NCBI RefSeq assembly: GCF_016907535.1 | Contig: NZ_JAFBCF010000001.1 | Location: forward strand, 558,001-622,000 | Origin: Microlunatus panaciterrae | Lineage (GTDB): Bacteria; Actinomycetota; Actinomycetes; Propionibacteriales; Propionibacteriaceae | DNA length: 64,000 nt | Reading direction: 5' to 3' | Part shown: positions 20,460 through 23,796 of the stretch, in pieces | Numbering within the stretch: the stretch's first letter is position 1 | Layout of the letters: every line of letters starts with the position of its first letter | Made by a program: the position numbers and the translations under genes | Notes under the pieces: generated by a model | The model's input: the letters and a program-made list of their open reading frames with translations, nothing else | Databases searched by the model: none | Told to the model about the DNA's origin: nothing

Positions 20460-20933
20460 TCACTCACCCCTGTTGCGTCGTGCCAGCGCTCGTTCGGCTT
20501 CTCGCTTCGCTTCCCGCTCCGCGATCGACTGCCGCTTGTCGTACTCCCGCTTGCCGGAGGCCACCGCCAGCTCCACCTTGGCGTAGCCGTCGGAGAAGTA
20601 CATCGACAGCGGGACCAGTGTGGTCCCACTGGAGGCCAGTTCGCGTTCGATCTTGGCAATCTCGCGACGGTTGAGCAGCAGCTTGCGGGTCCGTCGGGCC
20701 GCGTGGTTGGTCCAGGTGCCGTGGCTGTACTCCCCGATGTGCGCGGCCCGCAGCCAGACCTCGCCCTCGTCCACCGTCGCGAACGCGTCCGCCAACGAGG
20801 CCCGCCCTTCCCGCAGCGACTTGACCTCGGTGCCGCTCAGCACCATCCCGGCCTCATAGGTGTCGTGAATCTTGTAGTCGTGCCGCGCCTTCCGGTTCTG
20901 CGCGATCAGCTTGCGACCCTTTTCCTTGACCAT
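20460..20933 (-). CDS. smpB: SsrA-binding protein SmpB
   Basis: A 157-residue tmRNA-binding protein, full length. Conserved segments: [56 protein letters not shown], and the basic tail with KREYDKR before [18 protein letters not shown]. It binds tmRNA, whose gene lies ~4.7 kb downstream on the same strand, and delivers it to stalled ribosomes. ATG 20933 lies behind ATGGAGC; a longer frame upstream runs into the palindromic repeat and is not conserved. It is the usual last member of the prfB-ftsE-ftsX-M23-smpB block, but here an AbiEi-like gene separates it from the M23 gene. Confidence 0.96.
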
Positions 20934-20993
20934 TGCTCCATCATCTCGTCCCGCTCCAACTGGTTTCCCCGGCGGGGGTCCGGGTGGGGGGCA

Positions 20994-21060
20994 GTTTCCC
21001 AAGTCGACTTGGGAAACGGTCACGAAGCCAGGGAAATCTGCCTCGCAGAGTGACAGTTTT
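20994..21060 (+). repeat. Palindromic repeat element, copy 1
   Basis: A 67-bp element. It begins with a perfect 24-bp palindrome at 20994-21017 (core CCCAAGTCGACTTGGG). This is followed by an imperfect dyad that reads AAACGGTCAC at one end and GAGTGACAGTTTT at the other. It matches the reverse complement of the element at 22251-22315 without gaps over about 65 bp. The two copies lie in opposite orientation on either side of the AbiEi-like gene. Confidence 0.85.
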
Positions 21061-21119
21061 GTCAGCGCTGTGCGGGCGAAGGCCGCCGGAAGCCCGTCAT
21101 CTCGTACGGGCGGAGCGCC

Positions 21120-22112
21120 TCACAGCGGGATGACGACCCGACCGTTGGTGTACAGCGAGCGGGACTGCTCGAGGTCGCGCCTCAGCTGGCGCATGGTGGC
21201 TGCGGCATTGGCCGGCATCACCCCGGACCAGGTGAACCGTGACATGCCGAGCCGCTGGGCCCGCATCCCGTCCTCGCGGATCTTCTCCCGGACGACGGCG
21301 TCGCTGGCGGACTCCCCCTCGCGCAGGAAGCGTTGGTACTTGACCTCGCCGTCGAACTCGCCGAGGTGGCGATACTCCGGCCAGTGGAAGTCGCTTCTGC
21401 CGATGAGCCGGCCGGAGGTCGAAAAGACCTCGTACTGCAGGGTCGGGCGCGGGATGCCGTGCCGGTAGCACTGCAGCCGGGTGACCGACTCCCCCTCACT
21501 CTCCGAGCCGCCATCGGCCAGGCTCAGCGCCAGCCGCGCCACCCTGGAACCCGGGCGGCGGCGGTATCCGGGTGCATGGGCGAGCAGCTCCTCGCCCAGT
21601 GCGGGATGCAGCCGCAGCGCACTGTCCGCGGTGCAGACCCCGGCCGTCAGGGTGGACATGCACGCAACGTCCCACACCGTACGGGCGAGGGTGGTGACCC
21701 AGACGCGGCCGATCTGCTCCAGATCCTCGTCGATCCCGAGCGGCAGCCGGTGGTGGCAGATGCCGGCCTCGTCCCGCGACGAAGTGCCGTCGAGTCGAAT
21801 GATGTGGACGGCCTCGAGATCCTGGCCGTACACCGACAGGCCGCGGATCGCCGCCGCCGACGGCCCGGCCAGGGCGACCGAGCCGCGCTGCTGGTGGACC
21901 ACAGCCCTCGCCAGCACGGCGTGCCGTCCGGCCCGATCGAGAAGGCGATGCTGGTCGGCAAAGACGTAGGCGCCCTGCCGGAGGCGCAGCAGCAGCCCCG
22001 ATCGCGAGGCCGCCCGAAGGTCGCGGTCCAGCCAGCCGCAGTCCAGAGCCTGCGCTCGGGTGACGAAGCCGCCGTTGGCCGCGGCGGCACTGAGGAGCAG
22101 CGGAACGTCCAT
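21120..22112 (-). CDS. AbiEi-type N-terminal domain plus DUF559-like nuclease-fold protein
   Basis: A 330-residue protein. Residues ~1-55 form a winged helix like the type IV antitoxin AbiEi N-terminus (LLSAAAANGGFVTRAQALDC, LLLRLRQGAYVF). The centre holds the usual LAGPSAAAIRGL stretch. The C-terminal ~110 residues recall DUF559/Vsr-like nuclease folds: ESEGESVTRL, then SDFHWPEYRHLGEFDGEVKY with a D-x(n)-E-x-K arrangement. Such proteins are abundant in actinomycete genomes, often as solitary genes without a partner toxin, and their function is unproven. No AbiEii-like toxin gene is adjacent. ATG 22112 is preferred (MDVPLLLSAA); ATG 22142 is possible. The gene is bracketed by two inverted palindromic elements and interrupts an otherwise conserved ftsX-M23-smpB order. 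Confidence 0.78.
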   Translation of the reverse strand: MDVPLLLSAAAANGGFVTRAQALDCGWLDRDLRAASRSGLLLRLRQGAYVFADQHRLLDRAGRHAVLARAVVHQQRGSVALAGPSAAAIRGLSVYGQDLEAVHIIRLDGTSSRDEAGICHHRLPLGIDEDLEQIGRVWVTTLARTVWDVACMSTLTAGVCTADSALRLHPALGEELLAHAPGYRRRPGSRVARLALSLADGGSESEGESVTRLQCYRHGIPRPTLQYEVFSTSGRLIGRSDFHWPEYRHLGEFDGEVKYQRFLREGESASDAVVREKIREDGMRAQRLGMSRFTWSGVMPANAAATMRQLRRDLEQSRSLYTNGRVVIPL

Positions 22113-22250
22113 ACCCCAAGGACTAAGGAGACTGCGGCGCATCGTGCACCCTCAGGGGCGGGCTGTGGATGGCCGGCGGTGGGACACCTCGCCTGTGGAC
22201 ACCGGCGTCCCAGCACCTGCGGGCGGGCGTACCGGCGTCACGCAGCCAGG

Positions 22251-22315
22251 AAAACAGTCACTGGGCCAGGCAAATTTGCCTGGCCCAGTGACTGTTTCCC
22301 AAGTCGACTTGGGAA
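22251..22315 (-). repeat. Palindromic repeat element, copy 2
   Basis: A 65-bp element, inverted relative to the one at 20994-21060. It contains a perfect 46-bp palindrome at 22252-22297 (centre GGCAAATTTGCC, ends AAACAGTCAC and GTGACTGTTT) directly followed by a second perfect 20-bp palindrome at 22296-22315 (core CCCAAGTCGACTTGGG). The first dyad is perfect here but decayed in copy 1, so this copy is the better preserved. As RNA, either strand would form two strong adjacent hairpins. Confidence 0.9.
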
Positions 22316-22341
22316 TCCGACCGGCGAACGGGAGGAGCGGG

Positions 22342-23796
22342 TCAGTACCAGCTCATCGGGTTGACCATGCCCCCGTCGAGCCAGACCATCAGGTGCAGGT
22401 GGCAGCCGGTGGAGAAGCCGGTGGTGCCGACGTAGCCGATGACCTCGCCCTGCCGGACGTGCTCGCCGACGCTGACCGTGTAGCGGATGGCGTGGTTGTA
22501 GCCGGTGGTGACGTAGCGGCCGTCGACCATCCCGTGGTCGATCATCAGCCGGTTGCCGTAGCCGGCGTTGAAGTAGCGCTCCGAGACCCGGCCCGAGTAG
22601 GCGGCGTGGATCGCGGTCCCGCAGCCCGCTCCGAAGTCTGTGCCGTCGTGCAGCTTCCAGTAGTGCAGCACCGGGTGGAACCGCATCCCGTACGGCGAGG
22701 TGATCGGCGCGGACACCGGGTAGATGAAGCCGTGGTGCGCCGAGGAGTAGCTCGGCCGCGGGGCCGACCGGCGGTACGTCTTCTTGCTGGGCGACTTGTG
22801 CGAGGGGTAGCTGCGCTTGGCGGAGCTCCGGGACGACCGGGCCCTGGCGGCGGCTGCCGCCTCCTCCCGCGCCCTGCGCGCCTCCTCGGCCCGCTTCGCG
22901 GCCCGCCGGGCAGCCCGGGCTGCGGCGGCCTTGCGGGCGGCCTCGGCCTTGGCTCGGGCGATCCGGGCGGCGATGCGCTTCTCGACCGAGGCACGCTCGC
23001 GGCTGAGGTCGGCGTACCGCTGCTTGTCGGCGGCCACCTGGTGCTGGGCCGACGCCTCTGCGGACTGCTTGGCCTGGACCAGCGAGGCGACGTTGGCCGT
23101 CTGCGCTGCCGCCTGCTGCTCCAGCCGCTGCTTCGTCTTGAGGTTCGCCGCGGCCGCCTTGCGGTCGGCGGCGATCTGCTTCTCCAGCTCGGTCTGCTTG
23201 GCCCGCTCGGCGTTCAGCTTGCGCTGCAGCACCGTCAACTCGTCGATGCTGGCCTGGGTGGTGTCGAACATCGTGGTCGACCACTGGAGCCTGGTCTGCA
23301 GGTCCTTGGTCGAGTTGTTCTGGACCAGGATCGCGATCGGCATCAGATTGGTCTGCTGCTGGTAGGCGTCACGGACCTGCTGGCCGGCCATCTTCTCCTG
23401 GGCGTCAAGGGCCCGCTGCCCCTTCGCCACCGCGGCCTTGGCCTTCGCCAGCTGGGCCTTCGCCTTCTTCAGCTTCGCCGCCATCGCGATGTCACGCTGG
23501 GTCGCGGTCGCCAGCTCGGCCTCGGTCCGGGCCAGCTGGGCCTGCGCCACCTCCAGGTCCGCCTGGGCCCGGTCGACGGCGACGGCCGCTGCGGAGAGCT
23601 CCTTGGTGGACTCACTCAGGTCACGCTGCGTCTGGCTGATCTGCTTCTTGACCTTGTCCCGGTGATCGGTCAGGTCGTCGGCCGAGGCCAGCGGCGCCAT
23701 CAGCGTCAGCCCGACCGCGCCGGCCGCCATCAGAGCGACGGTGCCGCGGAAGACCCGCAGCCGTCGCGCCCTCGAGGTGTCCCCCCACACCGTCAT
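22342..23796 (-). CDS. EnvC-like M23 peptidase with coiled coil
   Basis: A 484-residue secreted peptidoglycan hydrolase. A basic N-terminus and hydrophobic segment (VALMAAGAVGLTLMAPLASA, ~21-40) form a signal peptide. Residues ~42-310 are a long coiled coil (heptads such as QISQTQRDLSESTKELSAAA). A very Ala/Arg-rich and basic linker follows. The M23/LytM domain is at ~385-484, with zinc ligands in HDGTDFG (H and D) and CHLHLM (H-x-H), so it looks catalytically complete. It lies directly downstream of ftsX, as expected for a hydrolase activated by FtsEX at the division site, comparable to EnvC in architecture but with an intact catalytic centre. ATG 23796 fits the signal peptide; longer starts do not. 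Confidence 0.92.
   Translation of the reverse strand: MTVWGDTSRARRLRVFRGTVALMAAGAVGLTLMAPLASADDLTDHRDKVKKQISQTQRDLSESTKELSAAAVAVDRAQADLEVAQAQLARTEAELATATQRDIAMAAKLKKAKAQLAKAKAAVAKGQRALDAQEKMAGQQVRDAYQQQTNLMPIAILVQNNSTKDLQTRLQWSTTMFDTTQASIDELTVLQRKLNAERAKQTELEKQIAADRKAAAANLKTKQRLEQQAAAQTANVASLVQAKQSAEASAQHQVAADKQRYADLSRERASVEKRIAARIARAKAEAARKAAAARAARRAAKRAEEARRAREEAAAAARARSSRSSAKRSYPSHKSPSKKTYRRSAPRPSYSSAHHGFIYPVSAPITSPYGMRFHPVLHYWKLHDGTDFGAGCGTAIHAAYSGRVSERYFNAGYGNRLMIDHGMVDGRYVTTGYNHAIRYTVSVGEHVRQGEVIGYVGTTGFSTGCHLHLMVWLDGGMVNPMSWY

Follow-up and report, generated by a model that had tools for sequence, protein, structure and literature searches.

A single gene for a nuclease-like protein lies between two palindromic elements in opposite orientation in the Microlunatus panaciterrae genome, and the question this arrangement raises is whether gene and repeats form one mobile cassette or whether repeats of a REP- or MITE-like kind hitch along with the gene. 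The locus is part of a 64,000-nt stretch, here called the window, for which a preliminary description had reported two elements of 65-67 bp that agree at most positions when one is inverted. Inverted repeat arms of 72 nt (20989-21060 and 22251-22322) are indeed 82% complementary, with one gene between them; the elements are real and longer than described, with a third, inner module, and 32 copies of them can be aligned without gaps over 90 columns.

The cassette in the window

Each element has the composition A-B-C, with the left copy at 20989-21078 on the plus strand (match to the R1 covariance model described below at G000:C1:578989-579078, 82.2 bits) and the right copy at 22233-22322 on the minus strand (G000:C1:580233-580322, 102.5 bits). 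Module A of both copies is a loopless palindrome, TTTCCCAAGTCGACTTGGGAAA, that points outward; in the left copy (20994-21017) it is a perfect palindrome of 24 bp, in the right copy (22295-22316) the inner 20 bp are perfect, and the 22-mer GTTTCCCAAGTCGACTTGGGAA is found at 20994 and again at 22294. Module B is a degenerate 40-bp dyad in the left copy (21017-21056), consistent with the decay noted previously, and in the right copy (22255-22294) forms a perfect 40-bp core inside the perfect 46-bp palindrome that had been claimed and that is seen at 22252-22297. On the inner side, each copy has a half-palindrome, C (consensus TTTCCCTGGCTnnGT), which is less well kept on the left. In the right copy, module A faces M23 at its 3' end, and in the left copy it faces smpB on its 5' side, the latter being contrary to the usual placement of these elements at gene 3' ends. 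Three Rfam matches, all to miRNA hairpin models, fall far under the gathering score and are regarded as chance.

The enclosed gene is present where it had been placed (21120-22112), with an open reading frame that is slightly longer (21120-22142, minus strand) and encodes 340 aa. The sole Pfam match of the product is a short AbiEi_4 hit at residues 16-62, and members of the family match AbiEi antitoxin models. An AlphaFold2 model from a 74-row alignment (pLDDT 92.7, pTM 0.89) consists of two parts. In VIA-align comparisons, residues 7-210 (21513-22124, minus strand) resemble AbiEi (6y8q_A; Z 11.3, rmsd 6.7 over 185 residues) and Rv2827c (1zel_A; Z 8.3), the only two chains to pass an E of 0.001 in Foldseek, and residues 213-330 (21153-21506, minus strand) have structural similarity to the I-Bth0305I catalytic domain (3r3p_A; Z 11.1, rmsd 2.5 over 97 residues), to ngo0050 (3hrl; Z 10.4) and to Vsr (1cw0_A; Z 9.2, rmsd 3.0 over 104 residues). 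On the strength of these models, the product is predicted to join an AbiEi-antitoxin-like DNA-binding half to a Vsr/EDxHD-type nuclease half. Of the earlier label, AbiEi/DUF559-like, the AbiEi-like fold is retained, whereas no search returned a DUF559 model; the nearest Pfam nuclease match in the family is REase_MTES_1575, in 2 of 74 members. Searches of PHROG with two proteins, of NCBIfam with four and of the PDB with sequence profiles gave no match. Twelve residues are invariant in the 74 sequences (five loci with frame stops were dropped beforehand, and L242 and L252 were left out): G57, E218, D251, E262, D264, G265, K268, Y269, E286, R289, E290 and R302. Among these, E218, D251, E262, D264, K268, E286 and R289 form an active-site-like set and are, by analogy, putative catalytic residues.

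The surrounding ftsX-M23-smpB block had been taken to be normally contiguous, and an empty site in relatives, lacking both gene and repeats, had been named as support for a cassette. Among 17 other genomes with smpB, the slot between M23 and smpB could be resolved in 10, and the two genes are adjacent in three of these (G002, G013 and G015, with some 30-40 bp between them in G015). The other seven carry a different gene in the slot, named by eye from translations as TrpS-like in G016 and G012, Gfo/Idh-like in G010 and G018, and alcohol-dehydrogenase-like in G014, G003 and G017. Contiguity and an empty interval thus hold for three relatives and not for seven, and the cassette was found in none; tblastn likewise placed an AbiEi-like gene near smpB in 0 of the 17, within 1.5-kb flanks that sometimes stop short of M23. 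In Microlunatus, the interval (20990-22342 in the window; L306-L322) thus has the look of a slot for insertions. The neighbours of homologous cassettes, compared by eye, mostly differ.

Dispersed elements in M. panaciterrae and its relatives

The check proposed in the preliminary description, a search for the repeat across its own genome, yields about 46 sites. Palindrome A, allowing up to three mismatches, occurs at 54 forward and 55 reverse sites in the whole genome of 4,068,014 bases and the reversed-pattern control at none, so the counts are far above chance. The R1 covariance model, built from the 32 copies aligned over 90 columns (with L014, L034 and double elements left out), returned 112 overlapping rows that merge into 46 element sites, 45 of which include a row of at least 60 bits; A-B-A doubles are among the sites. 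Many copies in this genome have a perfect palindrome as module B though its letters vary between copies, and its covariation score of 0.121, as compared to 0.070 in shuffles, is reached by 0 of 500 shuffles. Three of five covariation measures are above shuffles in the M. panaciterrae copies and two are not (288/500 and 204/500); dyad covariation is modestly above shuffles in G033, and that of the B module in G009 is no better than shuffled.

The single elements have a marked preference of position. Module A is directed toward the 3' end of a gene in 26 of 33, at a distance of 110 bp or less in 24 of those, with 12 elements located between convergent genes and 14 between tandem genes with A at the 3' end of the upstream gene; six are found between tandem genes in the opposite sense and one between divergent genes. 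These classes rest on a home-made codon-usage gene caller, after exclusion of a single element that falls within a called gene; L014, which has no B module, is counted among the six in reversed tandem position, L034 was misoriented with its class unaffected, and the caller missed smpB, such that the left copy of the window is misplaced in the count. Regarding the ends of the elements, k-mers shared between the two ends, as a target-site duplication would leave, are no more frequent than in shuffled pairings of 30 G009 copies and 32 M. panaciterrae copies, the ends of which are approximate. At one site, L016 (G000:C1:785133-785446), two inverted elements with their A modules outward enclose 134 bp that hold no gene, an arrangement resembling an empty cassette. 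At L011, L022, L027 and L033, extra tandem half-units (motifs of the type GGGAAACCGACA) run outward beside module A, as though half-sites accrue singly.

At first the repeat looked confined to this species. An exact 23-mer has no match in the GTDB genome contigs, a set to which the M. panaciterrae genome itself possibly does not belong, and palindrome A, with up to two mismatches, is missing from 19 of the 19 other genomes of the genus that were covered. The idea of a species-specific repeat was dropped, as the covariance model and the flanks of homologues revealed related, diverged elements. Sites of the R1 type number at least 13 in G014, at least 8 in G016 and at least 6 in G017 (counted by hand, with at most 29 candidates per genome scored), and elements of this type are also present in G096 and G081, from another genus. 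Both of the other genomes searched for an element of their own have it dispersed: that of M. parietis (G009) is found at 40 or more sites, with 38 of the 40 scored longer than 70 bp (from 69 candidates), and that of G033, from another family of the order, at a minimum of 41 distinct sites (40 of 57 candidates scored).

A gene family flanked by its own repeats

Homologues of the gene were found in 36 of the 40 genomes searched, including that of M. panaciterrae, and, at E <= 1e-20, the family is present in at least 69 of 296 sampled Actinomycetota genomes, again with its own genome included, a lower bound given that at most seven candidates were scored per genome. Homologues in relatives are themselves framed by inverted repeats, frequently of unrelated sequence, and in G017 and G014 matches to the R1 model directly frame the homologue. 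Three sets of loci bear on how general this is. The searched genomes supplied 50 homologue loci, including three in M. panaciterrae itself, and 45 of the 50 score 22 or higher from flank to flank; the cross-pair control of this set is mostly 13-19 and reached 179 (L056) and 94 (L050), for which reason a set of 75 loci with a shifted control serves as the main test. This set derives from a query of GTDB contigs, restricted to named genomes and to the best 80 of 509 relatives, five of which were without 300-bp flanks; in all three sets, the match of a locus was taken as inverted or direct, whichever scored higher. Matching repeats with a score of at least 22 are present on both sides in 64 of the 75 loci, one of which (L216) has an element of low complexity by a simple test, as compared to 6 of 450 cross pairs and, where the interval was moved 1.5 kb along the locus, to 1 of 61. 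A phylum-wide draw of 28 loci (one of 29, without 250-bp flanks, was left out) gave 17 flanked loci as against 0 of 168 cross pairs, a lower flanked share in the wider sampling; L352, counted in these 17, consists of simple sequence and is a possible artefact. The three sets overlap, with at least six loci common to the sets of 50 and 75 and with L344 identical to L057.

Loci with no flanking pair seen number 5 in the set of 50, 11 in that of 75 and 11 in that of 28. In genomes positive for R1, six of nine homologue loci tested are flanked; a homologue in G016 (L051) that is 56% identical has no flanking repeats, yet at least eight R1-type sites are found elsewhere in that genome. The genes of G081, G096 and G109 are repeat-flanked, and the flanks in G096 share sequence with the dispersed matches of that genome. 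Three draft contigs (G028:C15, G030:C42 and G013:C35) stop just beside the homologue, as expected if repeats break assembly. The two alternatives first offered for the window, a small cassette or REP/MITE-like repeats that hitch with a gene, are therefore both borne out in part: a dispersed, REP/MITE-like family exists and an inverted pair of its members frames the gene, whereas, with 64 of 75 loci flanked, the linkage of the gene family to its repeats is not chance hitch-hiking. Single copies do occur at many loci, the observation that had been expected to speak against a link, and the link exists all the same.

The sequence of the repeats follows that of the protein. Over 60 of the 64 flanked loci, repeat similarity is correlated with protein identity (Mantel rho 0.314), a value reached by 0 of 1000 permutations, the best of which gave 0.138. 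Among protein pairs more than 60% identical (n=34), 44% have similar repeats (score of at least 22), as opposed to almost none of the pairs below 50% identity (n=1556). Furthermore, repeats are unrelated in six of seven pairs of paralogues from the same genome, with each gene having its own flanking pair, and are partly alike in the seventh (L209 and L250, 69% protein identity). For instance, the three best paralogues in M. panaciterrae (L049, L145 and L155) have three unrelated repeats with cross scores of 7.0-9.0. The repeats belong to the gene, not to the species.

Elements that are unrelated in sequence nevertheless have one design. The median element length in the 64 cassettes is 80 bp, and for internal palindromes 50 of the 64 cassette elements lie beyond the 95th percentile obtained with shuffled sequence. 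Direct 6-mer repeats, counted in both copies of the 64 cassettes, occur 126 times at a lag of 19 and 167 times at a lag of 20, compared to 2.5 and 4.0 in shuffles. The elements are inverted arrays, with half-sites every 19-20 bp that are mirrored about the centre. Half-sites every two helical turns, in mirrored arrangement, are as expected for the site of a multi-protomer protein.

Known systems, alternative explanations and a possible mechanism

The closest organisational parallel is with the REPtrons, RAYT genes with inverted flanking REPs (PMC2817692 and PMC3733652), the RAYT genes always lying between two inverted REPs according to PMC2817692. Common to both are a single gene between two inverted palindromic repeats, and dispersed and mostly intergenic repeats that diverge along with the gene; between the approximate ends of the present elements, no signal of a target duplication was seen. 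In contrast to the Y1 HUH transposase of REPtrons, the enzyme here is an AbiEi plus Vsr-type protein, and the elements, in Actinomycetota, are of about 80 bp with half-sites every 19-20 bp. The Y1 transposase model PF01797 has 0 matches in the M. panaciterrae genome, its control being positive in 5 of 14, and a RAYT/REPtron is thereby ruled out for this genome; the GTAG/CGTC tag reaches, in its best column, 1 of 32 copies for GTAG and 4 of 32 for CGTC (5 of 32 for the complement GACG). With RAYT enzyme and GTAG tag absent, the unit is not a REPtron despite its matching organisation.

Type IV AbiE toxin-antitoxin systems share with the present protein the AbiEi fold of its N-terminal two-thirds and the binding of inverted repeats by AbiEi; both AbiEi and Rv2827c bind inverted repeats of their own promoters (PMC7319586). 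The present protein differs in its extra nuclease domain, and its repeats lie on both sides and are dispersed. No AbiEii toxin partner is present in the cassette of the window, which holds one gene between neighbours that encode SmpB and M23. Vsr, a nickase, and the EDxHD homing endonuclease I-Bth0305I have the fold of the C-terminal domain, which is here joined to an AbiEi-like part in a free-standing gene between palindromic repeats. The BOX, ERIC and MITE-type repeats are, like the present elements, short modular intergenic palindromes, and differ in that the flanking copies here enclose a dedicated gene family. Among the matches listed in searches of open-licence PMC papers, none connected flanking palindromes with genes of the AbiEi, DUF559 or Vsr type.

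Gene and repeats probably constitute a REPtron-like unit built around another enzyme, with a protein that binds and nicks its sites and so drives their spread. The analysis shows the linkage, the dispersal, the common design, the co-divergence of repeats and protein and the predicted folds. Binding, nicking, mobility and the protein as the cause of repeat spread are what we infer from the REPtron-like organisation, the binding of inverted repeats by AbiEi and the nickase activity of Vsr; the most economical mechanism is one in which the protein binds its sites and nicks them, and repair copies the element. The repeats would be the dedicated DNA sites of the protein, several protomers of which could share one face of the DNA. 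The winged-helix part would bind the half-sites and the nuclease part would nick within or beside the palindrome, and repair could then copy the element into further intergenic sites, chiefly at gene 3' ends where harm is small. Two inverted copies would turn the gene itself into a unit found at differing places in different species.

One alternative is that the elements are mere operators, to which an AbiEi-type regulator binds at its own promoter and at some 45 other sites, with a nuclease fold that is inactive or secondary. Autoregulation of AbiEi proteins via inverted repeats (PMC7319586), the co-divergence of repeats and protein, and the fact that flanked cassettes have one element on the upstream side of the gene are all in line with this idea. 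It is nonetheless unlikely, as single elements favour gene 3' ends (26/33) over positions between divergent genes (1/33), the opposite of operators, as the gene has another copy on its downstream side, and as the putative catalytic residues are invariant. Were the palindromes instead immunity or guide sites of a defence or self/non-self device whose nuclease attacks invading DNA, the match of AbiEi in the PADLOC defence library and the nuclease fold of the second domain would be accounted for; the dispersed elements at gene 3' ends would be left unexplained, and the cassette in the window has no second gene, making this quite improbable.

The position of the single elements, with module A toward a gene 3' end in 26 of 33, is what would be expected if the elements served the host in terminating transcription or stabilising mRNA 3' ends, with the cassette using them to settle between convergent genes, and the neighbours of cassettes are convergent in 24 of 46 cases against a background of 23 of 105 (counted in those 46 of 80 loci with all three genes called). 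We regard this as very improbable, since the palindromes in the window have neither loop nor U tract, since a scan of 20900-22400 found no terminator-like or sigma-70 site there, and since the repeats track the AbiEi-like gene and not the species, as a host terminator would not. Least probable of all is that the elements, short and dispersed with palindromic ends, belong as MITEs to some ordinary insertion sequence that escaped detection, with the gene as a passenger: a passenger would not be drawn from a single family at 64 of 75 gene-chosen loci (1/61 in the shifted control), the repeats co-diverge with the gene, and no signal of a target duplication was seen between the approximate ends.

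The recurrent pairing of gene and repeats in many actinobacteria suggests a little-noticed type of selfish repeat system. More tentatively, and with somewhat less confidence than we would place in its opposite, these units could represent a transposase-free class of mobile repeats, in which a Vsr-type nickase joined to an AbiEi-type module copies its own palindromic sites within actinobacterial chromosomes by nick-and-repair, and which would include many apparent orphan AbiEi antitoxins. If the REPtron-like reading holds, bacterial genomes would have a second and unrelated means by which short palindromes spread; a large family of AbiEi-matching proteins would need to be read differently, and many pairs of protein and site with naturally diverged DNA specificity would be available.
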